A stretch of 64,000 bases of DNA from Mesorhizobium sp. 131-2-1 (GTDB lineage: Bacteria; Pseudomonadota; Alphaproteobacteria; Rhizobiales; Rhizobiaceae), in contig NZ_AP023247.1 of NCBI RefSeq assembly GCF_016756535.1, positions 1,674,501 to 1,738,500 on the forward strand, written 5' to 3'. Below are positions 44,871-52,777 of the stretch, piece after piece; positions within the stretch are counted from its first letter, which is position 1, and every line of letters begins with the position of its first letter. Made by a program: the position numbers and the translations under genes. A model generated the notes under the pieces. The model had not been told where the DNA came from. It made no database searches and saw only the letters and a program-made list of their open reading frames with translations.

Positions 44871-44946
44871 AAAGGGTGGGCCGCAGGGCATGGTCATCGC
44901 GTTGCGGTGAAGCCATGCCCATTCCGTTCAGATGCGAGGATTTCCC

Positions 44947-45993
44947 ATGCCCTATGTCGCCGCCGAAAACCGCTATGAGAAGATGATCTACAATCGCTGT
45001 GGGCGATCAGGCCTGAAACTGCCGGCCATCTCGCTCGGGCTGTGGCACAATTTCGGCAACGACACGCCGCACAAGACCAAGCAGGCGATCGTTCGCCGGG
45101 CTTTCGACCTCGGCATCACGCATTTCGACCTCGCCAACAATTACGGTCCGCCGCCCGGCTCCGCCGAAACCGCCTTCGGCGAAATCATGCGCACCGACTT
45201 CGCCGGCTACCGCGACGAGCTGATCATCTCGACCAAGGCGGGCTACGAGATGTGGGCCGGTCCTTACGGCGAGTGGGGCAGTCGCAAATACGTGCTGGCC
45301 AGCCTCGACCAGAGCCTGAAGCGGATGGGGCTCGATTATGTCGACATCTTCTATTCGCACCGCTTCGACCCCGATACGCCCTTGGAAGAGACGATGGGCG
45401 CGCTCGACCATGCCGTGCGCTCGGGCAAGGCGCTCTATGCCGGCATCTCCTCCTACAATTCGCAGCGCACGCGCGAGGCGGCCGACATACTGAGGCAGCT
45501 CGGCACGCCCTGCGTCATCCACCAGCCGAGCTATTCCATGCTCAACCGCTGGGTCGAGGAGGACGGCCTGCTCGACACGCTGGAGGGGTTGGGCATCGGC
45601 TCGATCGTGTTCTCGCCGCTGGCGCAAGGCATGCTGACCGACAAATATCTGGGCGGCATCCCCGAGGGCAGCCGCGCTTCCCAGGGCAAGTCGCTGCGGC
45701 CGGCCTTCATCAACGACAAGAGCGTCACCAACATCAAGGCGCTGAACGCCATTGCCGGGCGGCGCGGCCAGACGCTGGCGCAGATGGCGCTGGCCTGGGT
45801 GCTGCGCAAGGGCCGCGTGACCTCGGCGCTGATCGGCGCCAGCCGGCCGGAACAGGTCGAGGATTGCGTTGGTGCGCTGAAGGCGCTCGACTTCAGCGAT
45901 GCGGAACTGGCCGAGATCGACAGCTACGCGCGCGAGGCCGACATCAACCTGTGGGCGGCCTCGGCCGAGCGCAAGGGTCCGCCGCGAAAGTAG
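44947..45993 (+). CDS. Aldo/keto reductase, L-glyceraldehyde-3-phosphate reductase (YghZ) type
   Basis: A 348-residue aldo/keto reductase. RCGRSGLKLPAISLGLWHNF at about 17-36 and FDLANNYGPPPGSAE are diagnostic of the YghZ/MgrA group. The catalytic set is Asp/Tyr in that second motif, Lys in STKAGYEMW and His in FYSHRFDP. Members reduce L-glyceraldehyde 3-phosphate or methylglyoxal; the physiological role is often detoxification. AGGA precedes the ATG. It ends the sugar operon and is followed by a strong terminator. Confidence 0.87.
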   Translation: MPYVAAENRYEKMIYNRCGRSGLKLPAISLGLWHNFGNDTPHKTKQAIVRRAFDLGITHFDLANNYGPPPGSAETAFGEIMRTDFAGYRDELIISTKAGYEMWAGPYGEWGSRKYVLASLDQSLKRMGLDYVDIFYSHRFDPDTPLEETMGALDHAVRSGKALYAGISSYNSQRTREAADILRQLGTPCVIHQPSYSMLNRWVEEDGLLDTLEGLGIGSIVFSPLAQGMLTDKYLGGIPEGSRASQGKSLRPAFINDKSVTNIKALNAIAGRRGQTLAQMALAWVLRKGRVTSALIGASRPEQVEDCVGALKALDFSDAELAEIDSYAREADINLWAASAERKGPPRK

Positions 45994-46071: not shown

Positions 46072-47163
46072 TCAGGGCTTGGCCGGCTTCTGAGCGGTAC
46101 CGACACCCGCCTTGGGCTTTACCGGCGTCGGCGTGGTCTTCATCTTCTCCTCGATCCAGCCGGTGTAATTGGCGAGCCGTGTGTAGATGCCGTAGGCGTT
46201 TTTGTGGCCACAGGCAGCGCTACCGTCATTTGGACCTTCTCCCCAGGAGACGACACCGACCTGGACCGGGCCGTCGGCGGCCGCCATGAACAGCGGCCCG
46301 CCGCTGTCGCCGTTGCAGGCATCGCGTTCACCGCTGGCGGTGCCGGCGCAGATCATGTTGTTGGTCAGCGGGTCGGACATGTCGGCGGCAATGGCGCTGG
46401 CGGCCGCATCGATGCCCTTTTCCGAATAGCGCATGCGGTGGGAGAGATCGCCAAGCGCGGCCTTCAGGTCGCGCGCATAGATGTCCTTGATGCCGCTGTT
46501 GCAGGTCGCGTTCGGCTGCAGATCGAGATCGGCGACCATCAGCGCCGTCGGGAAGGTTCCATCCTGCATCTTGCCCCAACCGGTGACCGTGGTCTTGCCG
46601 GCATCGGGGGTCGCTTCGTGGGCAACCTTGATCGTTGGCGCGTCCGCCGGCTCGGCCAGCCGGATCAGGCCGAGGTCGTTGTCCATCGTCTGCTCGCTGT
46701 AGCCTTCGTTGACGATGACCTCCACCGCCTTGTAGCGCTTGCCTTCGCCGAGATCGGTGGCGCCGGTGAGCACGGTGACCGCGCCCGCCGGGATCGGCCG
46801 GCCGCTGTCGACGAGGCAGTGCGCGGCCGTCAGCACCCATTGCGGGGCGATCAGGCTGCCGCCACAGAACTGCGCGTCCGGCTGCGATGCCGGGCTGTCG
46901 TCAAGCCTGTCGCTCGTCAGCAGCGCGACCTGGAACGGATAGGCGCCTTTCTCGGCCTCCTTGCCGCCATAGACGCGATCGGCGCCGTCGGGGTTCTCGG
47001 CCTTAGCCTTCGCCCGTTCTTCCGCCACCCGCTTCATCGGCGAGACAGCCGCTTCCGGCCGGGCAGGCCCGTCGGCCGCGTGGATGGCGTTGAGCGTCGC
47101 GAGCGCCGCCGTGCCGGCCAGCAATGCGATGGCGAGCGGCTTGAACCGATGGATGATGTTCAC
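46072..47163 (-). CDS. Trypsin-like serine protease zymogen (S1 family), exported
   Basis: A 363-residue protease. The signal peptide spans 1-29 and a pro-region reaches Arg63. The neo-N-terminus is VYGG (ADR|VYGGKEA), the counterpart of RIVGG in animal trypsins. The catalytic triad is His115 (LTAAHC), Asp163 (DNDLGLIRL) and Ser287 (GDSGGP). Asp281, six residues before the serine, predicts cleavage after Arg or Lys. The C-terminus has a Pro/Lys-rich tail. The start is a GTG with AGGAGG upstream. It diverges from a second protease and lies near a caspase-like gene with the same predicted basic preference. Confidence 0.9.
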   Translation of the reverse strand: MNIIHRFKPLAIALLAGTAALATLNAIHAADGPARPEAAVSPMKRVAEERAKAKAENPDGADRVYGGKEAEKGAYPFQVALLTSDRLDDSPASQPDAQFCGGSLIAPQWVLTAAHCLVDSGRPIPAGAVTVLTGATDLGEGKRYKAVEVIVNEGYSEQTMDNDLGLIRLAEPADAPTIKVAHEATPDAGKTTVTGWGKMQDGTFPTALMVADLDLQPNATCNSGIKDIYARDLKAALGDLSHRMRYSEKGIDAAASAIAADMSDPLTNNMICAGTASGERDACNGDSGGPLFMAAADGPVQVGVVSWGEGPNDGSAACGHKNAYGIYTRLANYTGWIEEKMKTTPTPVKPKAGVGTAQKPAKP

Positions 47164-47551
47164 CTTGACCTCCTGAGACGAACGTTCCCGAACGGGGCCG
47201 GCCCGGCGCAAGATCTGCGGTCCGTGGCACTTCGAACGACCGGCCGCGCAGCCCAGATCGGCGCGCGACCGGTCACAAAACCGAGTGCCACTTCTGCTAA
47301 TCGTGCCCGCGAGCAGAACCCGCTCAAAACCCTATAGCCCCCCACGGGCTACGTGGAAGCGATTTGTCGTTGCCAATGTTGGAATATTTTAGGCAGTATA
47401 TCGCGCGGATGTTTTGGCGGGGGCCTCGTTTGACCGCAGCGGGCAATGAACTGGCACGGGGGTAACCGAAGCCGGTGTTGGCCTCACCACGATCTCGACA
47501 ATATTTCTGTATCTTGATCCAGTCCTTGCTGACTTTTGGGAGAGTCTCACC
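47164..47551. other. Intergenic region between two divergent protease genes (388 bp)
   Basis: This region must contain both protease promoters. I see a small CCACG-GGCTA-CGTGG hairpin at about 47342-47356 and an AT-rich stretch around 47375-47405. I see no credible gene, no convincing -35/-10 pair and no extended operator. Confidence 0.5.
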
Positions 47552-48658
47552 GTGACAAAACTGACAAACACCATCATTGCGTCCGCGTTGCTTTCCAGCG
47601 CGATGTGGGCGGTGCCTGCCTTCGCCGCCGATCCCGGCACTGCCAATACCGGCAATGGCGAAAGCATGCGCGATGCTGGATCGGGCGACTACACGCCGGG
47701 GCGGGCAAAGCCGATCGCGCCGCCGAAGCTAACCGAGGACGAGGCCAGCCGCGCCGCGCCGCTCGCCGACGAGGATGCGGCGGTCAAGTCCTATGGCGTC
47801 GTCGGGCGTTCCGCCGACGGCAAGGAGATCAAGATCGAGGCAAACGAGGCGCTGAAGCAGTTGATCATCGAGGAACTGAACGCGCCGGCCGACGGGCAGG
47901 GGTCCGACGCTTCCGGTCCGCAGAACACCGAAGATCCCGGGCTGACGGAGGGCGAAGCCGGCCGCCAGGTCTTCGGCACCGACGACCGCGAGCAGGTCAA
48001 GAACACCAAGACCTATCCGTTCTCGGCCATCGGCTACCTCGAAGCCAAGTCGCCCAAGACCGGCAAATACGGCAGTTGCTCGGCGACGCTGATCGGCCCG
48101 CGCACCGTACTGACCGCCGCGCACTGCCTCTACAGCCATGAGGACGGCGCCTGGCTCGACGAATACCTGTTTGTACCGGGCCTCAATGGAAGCACCGCCG
48201 ACGACGCGCCGTATGGCGCCTTCACCTATGAGAGCGCCTATATCCTGCAGGGCTTCATCGACAACTACCAGGGCTTTTACGGCTCTGTCGTCCCATGGGA
48301 TCTCGGCATCGTCACGCTGAAGCAGGATATCGGCACCAATCTCGGCTGGCTGGGCTATGCCAATTACGAGGATCTCGGCGATTTCACCGCCAACATCGTC
48401 GGCTATCCCGGCGACAAGCCGATGGGCACGATGTGGAAGGCAGGCTGCGAAGTGCACGCTGAAAACATCGGCACGGACTATTTCCAGTATGATTGCGATA
48501 CGTTCCCGGGTTCGAGCGGCAGCTCGGTCTACGCCTACGATAATGCCGCGAAGGAGCGAGTCATCACCGGCGTGAATGTGGCCGAGAGCCCGGAAGCGAA
48601 CACCGCGGTCAGGCTCAACGCTGCCAATATCGAATGGATCAACAGCCTCTACAAATGA
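47552..48658 (+). CDS. Glutamyl-endopeptidase-like serine protease (V8/S1B type), exported
   Basis: A 368-residue protease. The signal peptide spans about 1-25, a long acidic pro-region runs to about 139, and a mature domain follows starting near VFGTDDREQV, which resembles V8-type mature ends. The triad is His191 (LTAAHC), Asp250 (VPWDLGIVTL) and Ser322 (FPGSSGSSV). V8-type enzymes usually cut after Glu or Asp; the specificity pocket is not certain here. The GTG start follows GGGAGA. Pro-region removal would need cleavage near Arg138-Gln139, a basic site the neighbouring trypsin could cut. Confidence 0.86.
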   Translation: MTKLTNTIIASALLSSAMWAVPAFAADPGTANTGNGESMRDAGSGDYTPGRAKPIAPPKLTEDEASRAAPLADEDAAVKSYGVVGRSADGKEIKIEANEALKQLIIEELNAPADGQGSDASGPQNTEDPGLTEGEAGRQVFGTDDREQVKNTKTYPFSAIGYLEAKSPKTGKYGSCSATLIGPRTVLTAAHCLYSHEDGAWLDEYLFVPGLNGSTADDAPYGAFTYESAYILQGFIDNYQGFYGSVVPWDLGIVTLKQDIGTNLGWLGYANYEDLGDFTANIVGYPGDKPMGTMWKAGCEVHAENIGTDYFQYDCDTFPGSSGSSVYAYDNAAKERVITGVNVAESPEANTAVRLNAANIEWINSLYK

Positions 48659-48690
48659 GGTCGACTCAAATCTGCCTGACGGCTGCATTC

Positions 48691-48726
48691 AAAAAAAGGC
48701 GGCGGGAGCGATCCGGCGCCTTTTTT
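48691..48726. terminator. Bidirectional Rho-independent terminator
   Basis: AAAAAAAGGCG at the left and CGCCTTTTTT at the right enclose a GC-rich loop with further internal pairing. It lies between the convergent V8-type protease and the minus-strand membrane-protein operon and can serve both. Confidence 0.85.
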
Positions 48727-48751
48727 ATATCCGGCGCCGATCGCCTGGCCG

Positions 48752-49474
48752 CTACTTGGACTGCGCGGGTTGTCCCCGGCGCACATAGGCCTCGATCGCC
48801 GAGGCGAAGTTGGCGGAGCCGGCCTTGCGCTGCTTTTCGATATAGCCGGCAAAGTAACTCCAGAACGAGACGGCATAGTCGCGGAAGTAGGAGTCTGCCA
48901 CCTTGTGTGAACACAGGTCGCTCTCGACGCAGATGGAGAGGCGGTTGAGGAAATAGACGATGCGGTCGAAGTGATCGCTGAAATCGGCAAGCGGCATGGT
49001 GCCGCCATCGGCGGTCATCGCCTCGATGCCGATGCGCTGCCTGAACACCTGCTCCTCGGTGGGCGTCGGATTGGCGCTGAGCAGATTGTCATATTTGGCG
49101 TTGAGCCCCGTCAGCCGCTCCTTGAGCGCCCGTTGCGCCTGCTGCAGGTCCTTGCTCTCCCAGAGCTCGACCAGCGACATGGTCTGCTCGACACGCTTCT
49201 GGTCCTGGTTGGCCAGGAACTGGAAGACGGAGAAAAGGAGGGTGAAGATGATCACCAGGCGCACCAGAAGGCCCGACCAGGCATAGGCCAGCATGCGCCA
49301 GTCACGATCGGTGAAGGGGTTCGATTCCTTCTTGATCTCGTGGCTGCTCGGCCACGGGAAGCCCTCCGTGGTCTCAGGCAGCGCCTCAGCCTTCTTGGCC
49401 GCCGGCGGCTCGGCCTTAGTCGACGCCGTCGCAGGCGCTGCTTGTTCCGTCACCTTGCCCCCCGGCCCATTCAT
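48752..49474 (-). CDS. Single-pass membrane protein of the protease locus, unknown function
   Basis: A 240-residue protein. It has a Pro/Ala/Lys-rich cytoplasmic-type N-terminus, one membrane segment at about 62-88 (AYAWSGLLVRLVIIFTLLF), and a helical C-terminal part with coiled-coil character from about 92. Two cysteines lie in SICVESDLCSH. I do not recognise the family. Its ATG overlaps the stop of the cysteine-rich secreted protein (ATGA), and both follow the caspase-like gene, so the three are probably one operon. Confidence 0.72.
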   Translation of the reverse strand: MNGPGGKVTEQAAPATASTKAEPPAAKKAEALPETTEGFPWPSSHEIKKESNPFTDRDWRMLAYAWSGLLVRLVIIFTLLFSVFQFLANQDQKRVEQTMSLVELWESKDLQQAQRALKERLTGLNAKYDNLLSANPTPTEEQVFRQRIGIEAMTADGGTMPLADFSDHFDRIVYFLNRLSICVESDLCSHKVADSYFRDYAVSFWSYFAGYIEKQRKAGSANFASAIEAYVRRGQPAQSK

Positions 49475-49857
49475 CGGCAGCTGTCCAGGTCGATGGTGGC
49501 GGACGGGTCGAGAACGACACCGGGCGCCTCGAGCTTTTTCTTCAGGCAATCGAGCTGCAAGCGCGAAATCATGAACTGCACATCCGGCTCGGCTGGCGCC
49601 TTGTTCGGCGAGGGCAGGGCCTCGACCACGCCGCGCGAGGCGCAGCCGCTGAGATCGACCACGACGGCCTCATTGCCGGTCTTGGCGATCTGGTCGTACT
49701 GGTCGAGAAAGCAGCTCGCCAATTCGGAATTGGTCACGATCTGCTTGGCGCAGAGGCCGCAGGTCTCCTCCGCCGCGGCATGGGCGAACGACAGCCCCGC
49801 GGCAAGAAGGCCCGCTCCGAGCCAGCAAAGCACATTGGTTTTCACGAGCGTCCTCAT
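49471..49857 (-). CDS. Cysteine-rich secreted protein of the protease locus, unknown function
   Basis: A 128-residue protein with a signal peptide (about 1-27, ending SFAHA). The mature part has six cysteines (ETCGLCAKQ, LASCFL, LSGCAS, QLDCLK and DSCR), enough for three disulfides, and is otherwise acidic. No family is recognised. It lies 93 bp after the caspase-like gene and overlaps the membrane-protein gene. A role as inhibitor, substrate or partner of the exported proteases is possible but unproven. The start at 49857 fits the signal peptide; its ribosome-binding site is close. Confidence 0.7.
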   Translation of the reverse strand: MRTLVKTNVLCWLGAGLLAAGLSFAHAAAEETCGLCAKQIVTNSELASCFLDQYDQIAKTGNEAVVVDLSGCASRGVVEALPSPNKAPAEPDVQFMISRLQLDCLKKKLEAPGVVLDPSATIDLDSCR

Positions 49858-49950
49858 CCTTTCCGCGCCGCGCCAGAATGTCCACATACCGAGCCTGTCG
49901 CGCAAGAGCCGATACGGCGGCTGCGACAGGCTTTTGCGGCGGCATGCCTT

Positions 49951-52167
49951 TCAGGTGCGGGGCACCGTCTCCATCGGAAAAATCATCACCGCACCCTTCG
50001 GCCCGCTCCTGTCGGCCAGTTTCATCACCGAGCGCGTTGAAGGCGCCATGCCGATATCGGTCAGCATGTCGGAGAAGCCGGAGCCGCCGACCGCGCGGGT
50101 GACCGAGGGCACGCCGTCCTGCGCCAGGAAGCTCAGGTCCTCTTTCTCGCTCTGCGGCGGCGCCTCGGTCAGCACGGCGATCATCCGCTCCATGCCGAAG
50201 CTGGAGTCGGTGAAGGCGAGCAGTCCTTCCCGCAAGCCGGCATCCGGCGAGCCGTTGGCGGGCGCCAGCCGTTCGGCGACGATATGGGTGATGGAGAAGT
50301 CGCTGCCGACATAGAGCACGTTGATGTCGACATACTTATCGGAATCATTCCTGGCCCTGATGTGCACCTCGTCGCCCGGCGAGACGCGCGGCACGGTCGA
50401 GGCCTGCAGCGGCTCCAGCGCGTCGCCACCCTTGCGCCTGATCTCGAACTCGACGCTCACTTCTTCCAGCCGGTAGTCGGACGCGGCCGCCAGCCTGGAG
50501 AGGCCGGTGGCGCGGAAGATGGTGGTCAGGTTCCTCGCCGCCGCCTCGGCCAGCTTTGCCGGGTCATCCGGATGGATGATGATCAGCGGCGGCCGGCCGC
50601 CGTCCTTCAGTGTCACGTCGCCGGACGCCGGGAGGAACCAGAGCGCCGGCTTGTCGGTCGCGTCAGCGGCCGCGCCGGCAATCGCATTCTCGCGTAGAAC
50701 CGCCAGCCGCAGGTCGGCACTCTTGCCAGGCTCGACCAGCTCAATATGAAACCCTGATTTTTTCCCGGTCGCCAGCTCGTCGAGGACCGAGTTGACCAGC
50801 GCCGTCTCCTTGTCGAGACCCTCGGTCGCTGCCGGCCGCGCCACCACGAGCCTGTAGTCGATGGCGAGTTCCGCGACGCGCGCATATGCACTGGCCGGGA
50901 TGTCGGCCAGTTTCAGCGCCGGCTTGCCGTCGAGTTCCACCGGCTGCACCCAGCTCTCCAGGTTCCTGGCCGACTGCACCTCGACATAGCCGAGCGCGTC
51001 GGAAAGCTGCGACAGGGCGGAAGGCAGGATGGCGAGCTTGCTGCCGGGGGTGAGGCGCTGCAGCAGCCCGGCGCCGATCGTCGCCGCGCCATCCTTGACG
51101 ACCAGCGGCCATTGCATCACCGCGTCGGTCCTGTCGGTGCCGAAGACGCGCGCGTCGAGCTCGCCCTCGAAGAGCGGCGTCGGCCGCGTGCGGCTGTCGG
51201 CCGAATATTGCTGCAGCACCGCCTGGCCGAGCTGGCGGTAGGTGACGTTGGGGTTCTCCGCCAGCTTGGACAGGATGGTGAAGGTGAACAGGCCGAAGCG
51301 CGGCGCGTCGGCGGTGCCCTTGGGCAGCGGCATCTCCGGCGTCGTCTCGATCGTCTGCGCGGCATAGAAGGCGACCAGCTTGCCCCTGCTGGTCGGCTCC
51401 GCGCCGGTCGGCGTCAGGTTGAAGGCCGGCTTGCGCTGGCCGTTCTCGTCGAGGCCGCGCGAGGCGCTCGCCGTGATGTCGTCATAGAGCTTCAACGCCG
51501 CCGCCCGCTCGGCCGCGCTGCCGCCGACCAGATCGGCGAACTCGACCTTGCGCTCCATCTCGTCGTCGACCTCGGCGGCGCGCGTCGCGGTGCCGGAATG
51601 ACAGCAGTCGAACAGCACCCAGACGAAGGCGCCCTTGTCGCGGATGGCGTCGAGTGCTGAGCCGACTTCATCGTCGACCAGCGCGTTGGGCACGCCGGCA
51701 TCGCGCTTGACCCATTTCTCGATGTCGACGGGGAGGAAGATCTCGTCGAGGCCGTCGGTCTCGTTGCCCTTCTTCGCTTCCGGCTGCTGCGCGCCGTGGC
51801 CGGACAGGTGCAGATAGACGAAGTCGTCGCGCTTAACCCTCGCGGCGAGGTCGGCCAGCGCCGCCTTGATCGCGGCGTGCGTTGGCAGGCCGGCGGCGCC
51901 TTCGACGTCCTTGGCGAGCAGGGTGATGTTTTCCGGCGCGAACTTCACCGGGGACGGCGTGTTCTTCAGCAGGTAGTCACGCACCAGGCCGGCATCGTTC
52001 TTCGGCCCGATCAGCCAGTTCTTCTTCGGCAGGTTCGGATAGTCGGTGCAAGCAACCAGCAGCGCATGATAGGTGCGCTGGGCGGCGAGCGCGCGAAACG
52101 GCACCGCGCCGGCAAGGCTGAGCGCGGAGGCGCCAGCAAGCAGCGTCCGGCGCGTCAATCTGATCAT
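49951..52167 (-). CDS. Tat-exported caspase-like (C14/metacaspase-type) protein with DUF4384-like C-terminus
   Basis: A 738-residue protein. The N-terminus MIRLTRRTLLAGASALSLAG is a twin-arginine signal. The caspase domain (about 32-300) carries His124 (HLSGHGAQ) and Cys189 (FDCCHSGT). Asp187 matches the Asp that gives metacaspases Arg/Lys preference. The middle (about 300-600) is unassigned. The end (about 600-720, SPGDEVHIRARNDSDKYVDI) resembles DUF4384, often fused to bacterial caspases. Export by Tat puts a folded protease in the periplasm, unlike cytoplasmic defence caspases. It heads a three-gene operon. Confidence 0.87.
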   Translation of the reverse strand: MIRLTRRTLLAGASALSLAGAVPFRALAAQRTYHALLVACTDYPNLPKKNWLIGPKNDAGLVRDYLLKNTPSPVKFAPENITLLAKDVEGAAGLPTHAAIKAALADLAARVKRDDFVYLHLSGHGAQQPEAKKGNETDGLDEIFLPVDIEKWVKRDAGVPNALVDDEVGSALDAIRDKGAFVWVLFDCCHSGTATRAAEVDDEMERKVEFADLVGGSAAERAAALKLYDDITASASRGLDENGQRKPAFNLTPTGAEPTSRGKLVAFYAAQTIETTPEMPLPKGTADAPRFGLFTFTILSKLAENPNVTYRQLGQAVLQQYSADSRTRPTPLFEGELDARVFGTDRTDAVMQWPLVVKDGAATIGAGLLQRLTPGSKLAILPSALSQLSDALGYVEVQSARNLESWVQPVELDGKPALKLADIPASAYARVAELAIDYRLVVARPAATEGLDKETALVNSVLDELATGKKSGFHIELVEPGKSADLRLAVLRENAIAGAAADATDKPALWFLPASGDVTLKDGGRPPLIIIHPDDPAKLAEAAARNLTTIFRATGLSRLAAASDYRLEEVSVEFEIRRKGGDALEPLQASTVPRVSPGDEVHIRARNDSDKYVDINVLYVGSDFSITHIVAERLAPANGSPDAGLREGLLAFTDSSFGMERMIAVLTEAPPQSEKEDLSFLAQDGVPSVTRAVGGSGFSDMLTDIGMAPSTRSVMKLADRSGPKGAVMIFPMETVPRT

Positions 52168-52372
52168 GGATGCCCCCCAAGCACGATCATATTCCCAAGC
52201 GCGGCAACCCTTGTCGATGATTTTGTCAGTATTTTGAAGGTTGACTGCCAGCGCTGTCCATGGCGACGGAAACAGTGGCAAAAGGCACGGTTCGTCGCTA
52301 TCTCAATGGAATTGAAGCCGTTTGCCTGCGCAAATGGCGTTACCGCGAAGCAAACAGACCGGAAGCAGGATC

Positions 52373-52777
52373 ATGGCGGCAAGGGATGTGCTGACGAAGA
52401 ACCAGCTGTGCGTGCTCGAAAAGCTCGAGGCCGCCAGCGGACCGCTCAGCGCCTATATGCTGCTCGACCAGTTGCGCGAACGCGGGTTCCGGGCGCCGCT
52501 GCAGGTCTACCGTGCGCTCGACACGCTGGTGAAGACCGGCTTCGTGCATCGGCTGGAAAGCATCAACTCCTTCGTCGCCTGCGCCGAGCCGCACGACCAC
52601 GGCCATTCGATGACCGCCTTCGCCATCTGCGACACATGTGGCCAGGTGACGGAGATGTCCGATCATGATGTCGACCACCGGCTCCACGAATGGGTGCGCT
52701 CGACGGGCTTCGCCGCCAAGAAGGCGGTGATCGAGTTCCGCGGTGTATGCGCCAAGTGTCGGGCCGAGGCGGCCTAG
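52373..52777 (+). CDS. zur: Fur-family metalloregulator, Zur-like
   Basis: A 134-residue Fur-family protein. The winged helix (about 8-70) includes GPLSAYMLLDQLRERGFRAP and QVYRALDTLVKTGFVHRLES, a pattern closer to Zur than Fur. Structural zinc cysteines are in CDTCGQ and CAKC. Sensory-site His residues are in EPHDHGHSM. It probably represses zinc uptake genes when zinc is present; no target is in the window. The start at 52373 follows AGGATC. No Zur box was identified in the 205-bp upstream gap. Confidence 0.82.
   Translation: MAARDVLTKNQLCVLEKLEAASGPLSAYMLLDQLRERGFRAPLQVYRALDTLVKTGFVHRLESINSFVACAEPHDHGHSMTAFAICDTCGQVTEMSDHDVDHRLHEWVRSTGFAAKKAVIEFRGVCAKCRAEAA

Follow-up and report, generated by a model that had tools for sequence, protein, structure and literature searches.

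We analyzed a 64,000-nucleotide stretch of the Mesorhizobium sp. 131-2-1 genome (NZ_AP023247.1, positions 1,674,501 to 1,738,500; hereafter the window), in which five neighboring genes encode three different proteases, a cysteine-rich (Cys-rich) secreted protein and a membrane protein. An original prediction had proposed that all three proteases carry export signals and intact catalytic residues; Pfam searches and a check of the residue numbering bore this out, together with the coordinates of the five genes. The locus reads as follows (Tat, twin-arginine translocation):

46072..47163, minus strand: trypsin-type zymogen (S1A) with a GTG start, a signal peptide and an activation site at R63/V64
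47164..47551: intergenic region between the start ends of the divergent trypsin and V8-type genes, taken from their coordinates
47552..48658, plus strand: V8-type (S1B) protease zymogen with a signal peptide and a pro-region reaching to R138/Q139
48752..49474, minus strand: DUF4760 membrane protein (PF15956)
49471..49857, minus strand: secreted Cys-rich protein, its stop codon overlapping the DUF4760 start (ATGA)
49951..52167, minus strand: C14 metacaspase-type protease (PF00656), here called the caspase, with a Tat-type motif and a long C-terminal part

The caspase, Cys-rich and DUF4760 genes form an apparent operon on the minus strand, convergent with the V8 gene on the plus strand. The region 47164..47551 presumably holds the promoters of both the trypsin and the V8 genes.

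The trypsin (PF00089, E 2.5e-46) has the S1A triad His115, Asp163 and Ser287, an equivalent of Asp189 at D281, and an IVGG-type new N-terminus after a basic residue; the activation site proposed earlier, ADR63/VYGG with the cut after R63, was confirmed with its numbering. The V8-type protease matches PF13365 (E 3.8e-08) and PF00089 (E 6.4e-07) and aligns over residues 140–364 with a solved glutamyl endopeptidase, 1p3c (E 1.6e-17), giving it both the V8-type sequence and the triad (His191, Asp250, Ser322). Asn342 replaces the S1 histidine. V140 pairs with residue 2 of the 1p3c chain, so that Q139 corresponds to residue 1 and the cut should fall after R138 (R138/QVFG), in agreement with a pro-region that had been expected to end near GRQVFG.

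The caspase matches PF00656 (E 6.2e-12, 46 bits against a cut-off of 21.4), with the p20 His/Cys dyad; this was the only Pfam family found up to E 1, and the C11 peptidase domain of the fragipain family was not matched. Its key residues are Asp58, His124, Asp187 and Cys189. In alignments to solved metacaspases (4f6o, 7qp0, 6w8s, 4af8) these four residues fall in the region of the dyad and the pocket, and the S1 pocket aspartates of TbMC2 are Asp95 and Asp211 (PMC6426788, from the available part of that source). The pocket is therefore of the Arg/Lys type by its residues, with both aspartates present, and the cleavage specificity is predicted accordingly. The original prediction had singled out Asp187, two residues before Cys189; the residues are right, and Asp58 is present too, but an aspartate there is general among metacaspases and orthocaspases, and for that reason we dropped it as support taken alone. 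With regard to a separate p10 domain, as in type I metacaspases, the alignments to solved metacaspases stop soon after the catalytic Cys, and the Pfam match runs to residue 304. Among nine C14 matches in its own genome, the window caspase has the lowest Pfam score, each of the eight others outscoring it.

The expected Cys-rich secreted protein and membrane protein are both present beside the proteases. The former has a Sec-like N-terminus and matched no Pfam family above cut-off; against solved structures its one match (E 0.034), a short chain unrelated to it, is not usable. The six cysteines of its mature part are invariant in 32/32 aligned sequences. The DUF4760 protein (PF15956, E 1e-08) has one hydrophobic stretch, residues 61–89, likely a transmembrane helix. 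Export was judged by eye and by hydropathy of the N-termini, which are Sec-like in the trypsin, the V8-type protease and the Cys-rich protein. The caspase has the twin-arginine (RR) motif TRRTLLAG of the Tat type. In relatives, the loci were named from one genome scan, using the best 80 of 230 relatives. The RR motif occurs in 42/42 of these named loci in the main Mesorhizobium clade and in only 10 of the 33 other assessable loci (five of the 80 could not be assessed); export of the Tat type is therefore not a conserved feature. The Tat-exported caspase of the original prediction thus stands for the window protein and not for the family.

The cassette is a real conserved unit. Among 99 genomes of the same genus, a sample from a larger group, orthologues of caspase, trypsin and V8 occur together in the same 37, and the other 62 have an orthologue of none of the three; neither the trypsin match in G152 (114 bits) nor the V8 match in G228 (62 bits) was taken as an orthologue. 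The scattered distribution that would have spoken against the original prediction was not found. The borders of the cassette are two ordinary genes:

44932..45993, plus strand: aldo-keto reductase (PF00248), left border
52322..52777, plus strand: Fur-family regulator (PF01475), right border

In 8/8 cassette-free genomes examined, the aldo-keto reductase gene adjoins the Fur gene and nothing between them matches the five genes, leaving clean empty sites. Fur directly adjoins the caspase in 56 of the 80 named loci, including 42/42 in the main Mesorhizobium clade. We saw the reductase in 9 of the 80, all of the reduced form described below, because most of the other fetched stretches stop before its position. 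Co-occurrence and empty sites together rule out a chance neighborhood. A mobile element at the site was also considered and seems unlikely: the flanking genes on both sides are ordinary (GFO/IDH, aldo-keto reductase, Fur, LysE, polA) and the window contains no tRNA gene, border repeats not having been searched. A caveat is that caspase copies lie on plasmids in other genera. Pseudosulfitobacter accounts for 46 of the 53 plasmid records with a caspase match, and one of these plasmids, 82 kb long, carries trypsin, caspase, patatin, a two-component system and a CHAT protein.

The association extends to a family sample of 151 genomes. Using cut-offs chosen after the scores were seen (above 300 bits for caspase and trypsin, above 290 bits for V8), the strong trypsins (16 genomes) and strong V8 proteases (14) all fall inside the 17 genomes with a strong caspase (Fisher 1e-20 and 3e-17, respectively, uncorrected for kinship). 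The cut-offs removed the caspase matches of G003, G011, G021, G066 and G099, the trypsin matches of G087 and G099, and the V8 match of G077. Without them, there are 22 genomes with a caspase, 18 with a trypsin (18/18 with a caspase match) and 15 with a V8 (14/15). The trypsin lies at most about 22 kb from the orthologous caspase in 11 of the 16 strong-trypsin genomes and is clearly unlinked in three: about 160 kb away on the same contig in G062, over 300 kb away on the same contig in G007, and on another contig in G112 (same genus as G007), where both genes are far from contig ends. G030 and G055 were not counted as unlinked because their two genes, on different contigs, both lie near contig ends.

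The most telling residues are in the V8 family. The S1 His of glutamyl endopeptidases binds Glu, and these enzymes self-process at Glu. Neither that histidine nor a Glu at P1 of the pro-region boundary is found in the locus enzymes. In the best 120 of 439 homologues of the locus type, P1 is Arg in 120/120 and the S1 position is Asn in 120/120. The 55 V8 copies from named loci agree (P1 Arg in 54, the remaining one being a fragment without the region; Asn in 55/55). As an outgroup we took the best 120 of 1180 homologues, query included, of a V8-like protein (L189) from a caspase-free genome. Here P1 is Glu in 107, Gln in 4, Asp in 2, Arg in 2, Gly in 1 and a gap in 4, while 120/120 have His at the S1 position. 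A V8-like match was also found in 6 of 80 genomes that lack a strong orthologue of the caspase. None of these six has Arg at the aligned P1 position, though three align poorly; the other three, clearly of V8 type, carry Glu and His. Both elements of the pattern for self-processing at Glu are thus gone from the locus V8 family, as if self-activation had been traded for an Arg-specific activator. Tandem V8 paralogues with dead active sites occur in some relatives (L039:8146-9471, L040:4282-5748, L128, L131, L042:4401-5522), with Ser322 replaced by Asn or with both His and Ser gone, which suggests pseudo-protease partners.

A second line of evidence comes from the trypsins. P1 is basic in 55/55 copies (Arg 52, Lys 3). 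Asp189 was present in 16/20 homologues of a first alignment set, window included. A second alignment took only trypsins longer than 300 residues (22/55, most of the others being cut by the end of the stretch); the position was readable in 21 of these 22 and is Asp in 14. It is Thr (6) or Gly (1) in seven of eight Rhodobacteraceae homologues, whose P1 residues are Arg (4) and Lys (3) and whose adjoining caspase has Asp58, His124, Asp187 and Cys189. Lacking Asp189 yet having a basic P1, these seven S1A enzymes should need a basic-specific activator, much as chymotrypsinogen depends on trypsin. This supports a step from caspase to trypsin, short of proof.

In the caspases, His124, Asp187 and Cys189 are kept in 87/87 copies of named loci and Asp58 in 85/87. 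The linker after the catalytic Cys is otherwise variable, yet it retains Arg206 (41/41), Arg245 (36/41) and Arg237 (33/41), which we regard as candidate processing sites.

The five-gene composition described in the original prediction is complete at this locus, but the larger locus of which it is a reduced form is invisible from the window. In many relatives, extra genes lie between the two halves of the locus and encode a WD40-repeat and C14 protein (WD40-caspase), a Memo and PGA_cap protein (Memo/CapA) and a MORN-repeat protein, with Sec-like N-termini as judged by eye. Two of these WD40-caspases matched more Pfam families than the 25 that were examined. The WD40-caspase is present in 46 of the 80 named loci; Memo/CapA is missing in five of the 46, all on contigs ending nearby, and no MORN gene occurs without a WD40-caspase among the 80. 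The Cys-rich and DUF4760 genes are each present in 65/80. His, Cys and the Asp at −2 are retained in 45/46 WD40-caspases, one being partial. A search of the window's own genome with a WD40-caspase gave matches only in the WD-repeat part. In a quick tree of 69 caspases (the window and the 68 of 80 loci with a caspase above 850 bits), the reduced form comprises 11 loci and the window, and its label needs seven changes, which makes repeated loss of the block the likeliest course.

The site of the missing block is the junction 48659-48751, with the full form seen in L092, L094 and L155. Its genes stand at the far ends of two converging rows, and several Mesorhizobium lineages, the window's among them, lack the block as a whole. 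In G028 and G127 (L047-L050), about 18–20 kb of unrelated genes part the caspase operon from the V8 and trypsin genes. L052 and L065 (G049, G055) encode, beside the caspase and divergently from it, a protein with two caspase-like stretches (by eye). A Roseobacter locus, L170, contains trypsin, a second caspase, patatin, a histidine kinase and CHAT; there and in L195 (NZ_CP086846.1), trypsin and caspase are joined by patatin, histidine kinase or two-component system, and CHAT proteins.

We read the cassette as a conserved exported protease module that is, by a slight balance of the probabilities, an Arg-triggered cascade of cell-envelope zymogens. The metacaspase-type protease and the trypsin would be the Arg-cutting initiators and amplifiers, the caspase probably processing itself in its Arg-containing linker, and the V8-type enzyme would be the terminal protease, incapable of self-activation and awaiting an Arg cut after R138. 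The DUF4760 and Cys-rich proteins, translationally coupled and encoded beside the caspase gene, may anchor or restrain the caspase. The WD40-caspase/CapA/MORN block of many relatives would be an extra input, lost in the lineage of the window. A relay from caspase to trypsin to V8, which the original prediction had called conceivable, gains two supports from these comparisons, the V8 residue switch and the Rhodobacteraceae trypsins; it is still an inference, in which the cut after R138 could fall to the trypsin or to the caspase. A fuller version, resembling clotting or complement, with a metacaspase-type initiator, a trypsin amplifier, an Arg-dependent V8 terminal protease and a detachable WD40-caspase/CapA/MORN input, is more tentative, and we hold it at somewhat under even chances.

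Several observations weigh against an Arg-triggered cascade. The V8 switch may be one evolutionary event, since it separates two sub-families, and the two outgroup proteins with P1 Arg nevertheless keep His. No V8 match was found in G030 and G129, nor in the fetched stretches of the seven Rhodobacteraceae loci without Asp189, so V8 is not essential; the catalytic Ser is lost in 3 of the 55 V8 copies. Asp189 is present in the trypsin of L166, the eighth Rhodobacteraceae trypsin locus, where there is a V8 gene too, and with this residue both the L166 and the window trypsins may self-activate. S1A zymogens as a group commonly have a basic P1, and for this reason we dropped the P1 Arg of the trypsin as strong support. 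Physical linkage by itself could account for the all-or-none pattern within Mesorhizobium.

Three other explanations were weighed. The genes might encode a co-regulated digestive set, three independent secreted scavenging proteases, each activated on its own or by general proteases of the envelope, without any relay. The export signals on all three fit this, as do a window trypsin that could self-activate through Asp189 and the absence of any sensor domain recognized by Pfam in the five genes. A scavenging V8, however, should have retained the Glu-His self-processing of which the locus family lost both parts, co-occurrence holds in the three genomes with unlinked genes, and a metacaspase-type enzyme with a membrane protein and a Cys-rich partner is, in our judgement, unusual for scavenging; we consider a digestive set unlikely, at about one chance in five. 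Somewhat less probable still is that the caspase is target and effector, the trypsin cutting its linker at Arg206, Arg237 or Arg245. Conservation of Arg within a variable linker, Asp189 in 14 of 21 assessable trypsins and the company of trypsin and caspase where V8 was not found would all suit such an order. It misfits the seven Rhodobacteraceae loci whose trypsin homologue lacks Asp189, it leaves V8 unaddressed, and the Arg/Lys pocket of the caspase makes self-processing equally likely.

We give the least credence to a system for defence or programmed death, with the proteases harming the cell or its envelope upon attack. Caspase-like and trypsin-like proteases do occur in such systems (PMC7159879, available part), the cassette is patchy (37/99 same-genus genomes), and in the PADLOC defence library a generic caspase model matches (E 8e-13), as do, weakly, models for both serine proteases. 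Against this, Pfam found no NTPase, STAND, vWA or nuclease domain in the five genes, the proteins bear export signals, and the cassette occupies a fixed chromosomal site by the Fur and polA genes and not a defence island. An Arg-triggered cascade remains our preferred reading.

Our last question was whether such a system had been seen before. Metacaspases and bacterial orthocaspases (C14B; Metacaspase-1, 4f6o and 7qp0; Metacaspase-4, 6w8s; MCA2, 4af8) share the p20 dyad and S1 aspartates with the locus caspase, which differs in being exported, in having an Arg-containing linker, in its about 430 residues beyond the Pfam match, and in being encoded together with two serine proteases. Glutamyl endopeptidases (V8 protease, 1qy6; 1p3c) share sequence relationship, triad and mature N-terminus position, whereas the locus V8 has Asn for the Glu-binding His and P1 Arg for Glu (best 120 of 439). 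In the staphylococcal cascade, aureolysin activates SspA, the V8 protease, which activates SspB; several secreted zymogens are likewise activated in order, but there is no caspase-like or trypsin-like member. Fragipain is an exported clan CD enzyme. As described in the available parts of two sources, this cysteine protease of Bacteroides activates protoxins (PMC8406203) and belongs to C11 (PMC6964027); it resembles our proposal in activating zymogens of another family, and differs in being C11, not C14, and in having toxins as targets where ours would be proteases.

The remaining comparisons also rest on sources available in part. In Alphaproteobacteria, a trypsin domain is fused to a pseudo-orthocaspase with a QC dyad (PMC6426788), an independent sign of a link between trypsin and caspase-like domains; the fusion is one polypeptide with an altered caspase dyad, and V8, DUF4760 and Cys-rich partners go unmentioned in the available part. 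NTP-dependent conflict systems, built around NTPases, likewise include both caspase-like and trypsin-like peptidases, the two being mutually exclusive (PMC7159879); their NTPase core (MoxR/vWA, STAND, GTPase) was not found by Pfam in the five genes. WD40 domains and possible signal peptides have been described in metacaspases (PMC3501461). These fusions, metacaspases and conflict systems are thus already in print, as far as the available parts of the three sources go. No literature describing this gene set was found by title or start of abstract, in a search whose coverage leaves out most subscription journals.

The roles of bacterial caspase relatives are largely unclear, and this locus offers a compact chromosomal five-gene case in a culturable Mesorhizobium. 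One site provides natural full, reduced and empty versions, with residue-level predictions at R63, R138, Asn342 and the linker Arg. If the proposed reading is true, bacteria would possess an ordered cascade of exported zymogens run by a caspase-type enzyme.

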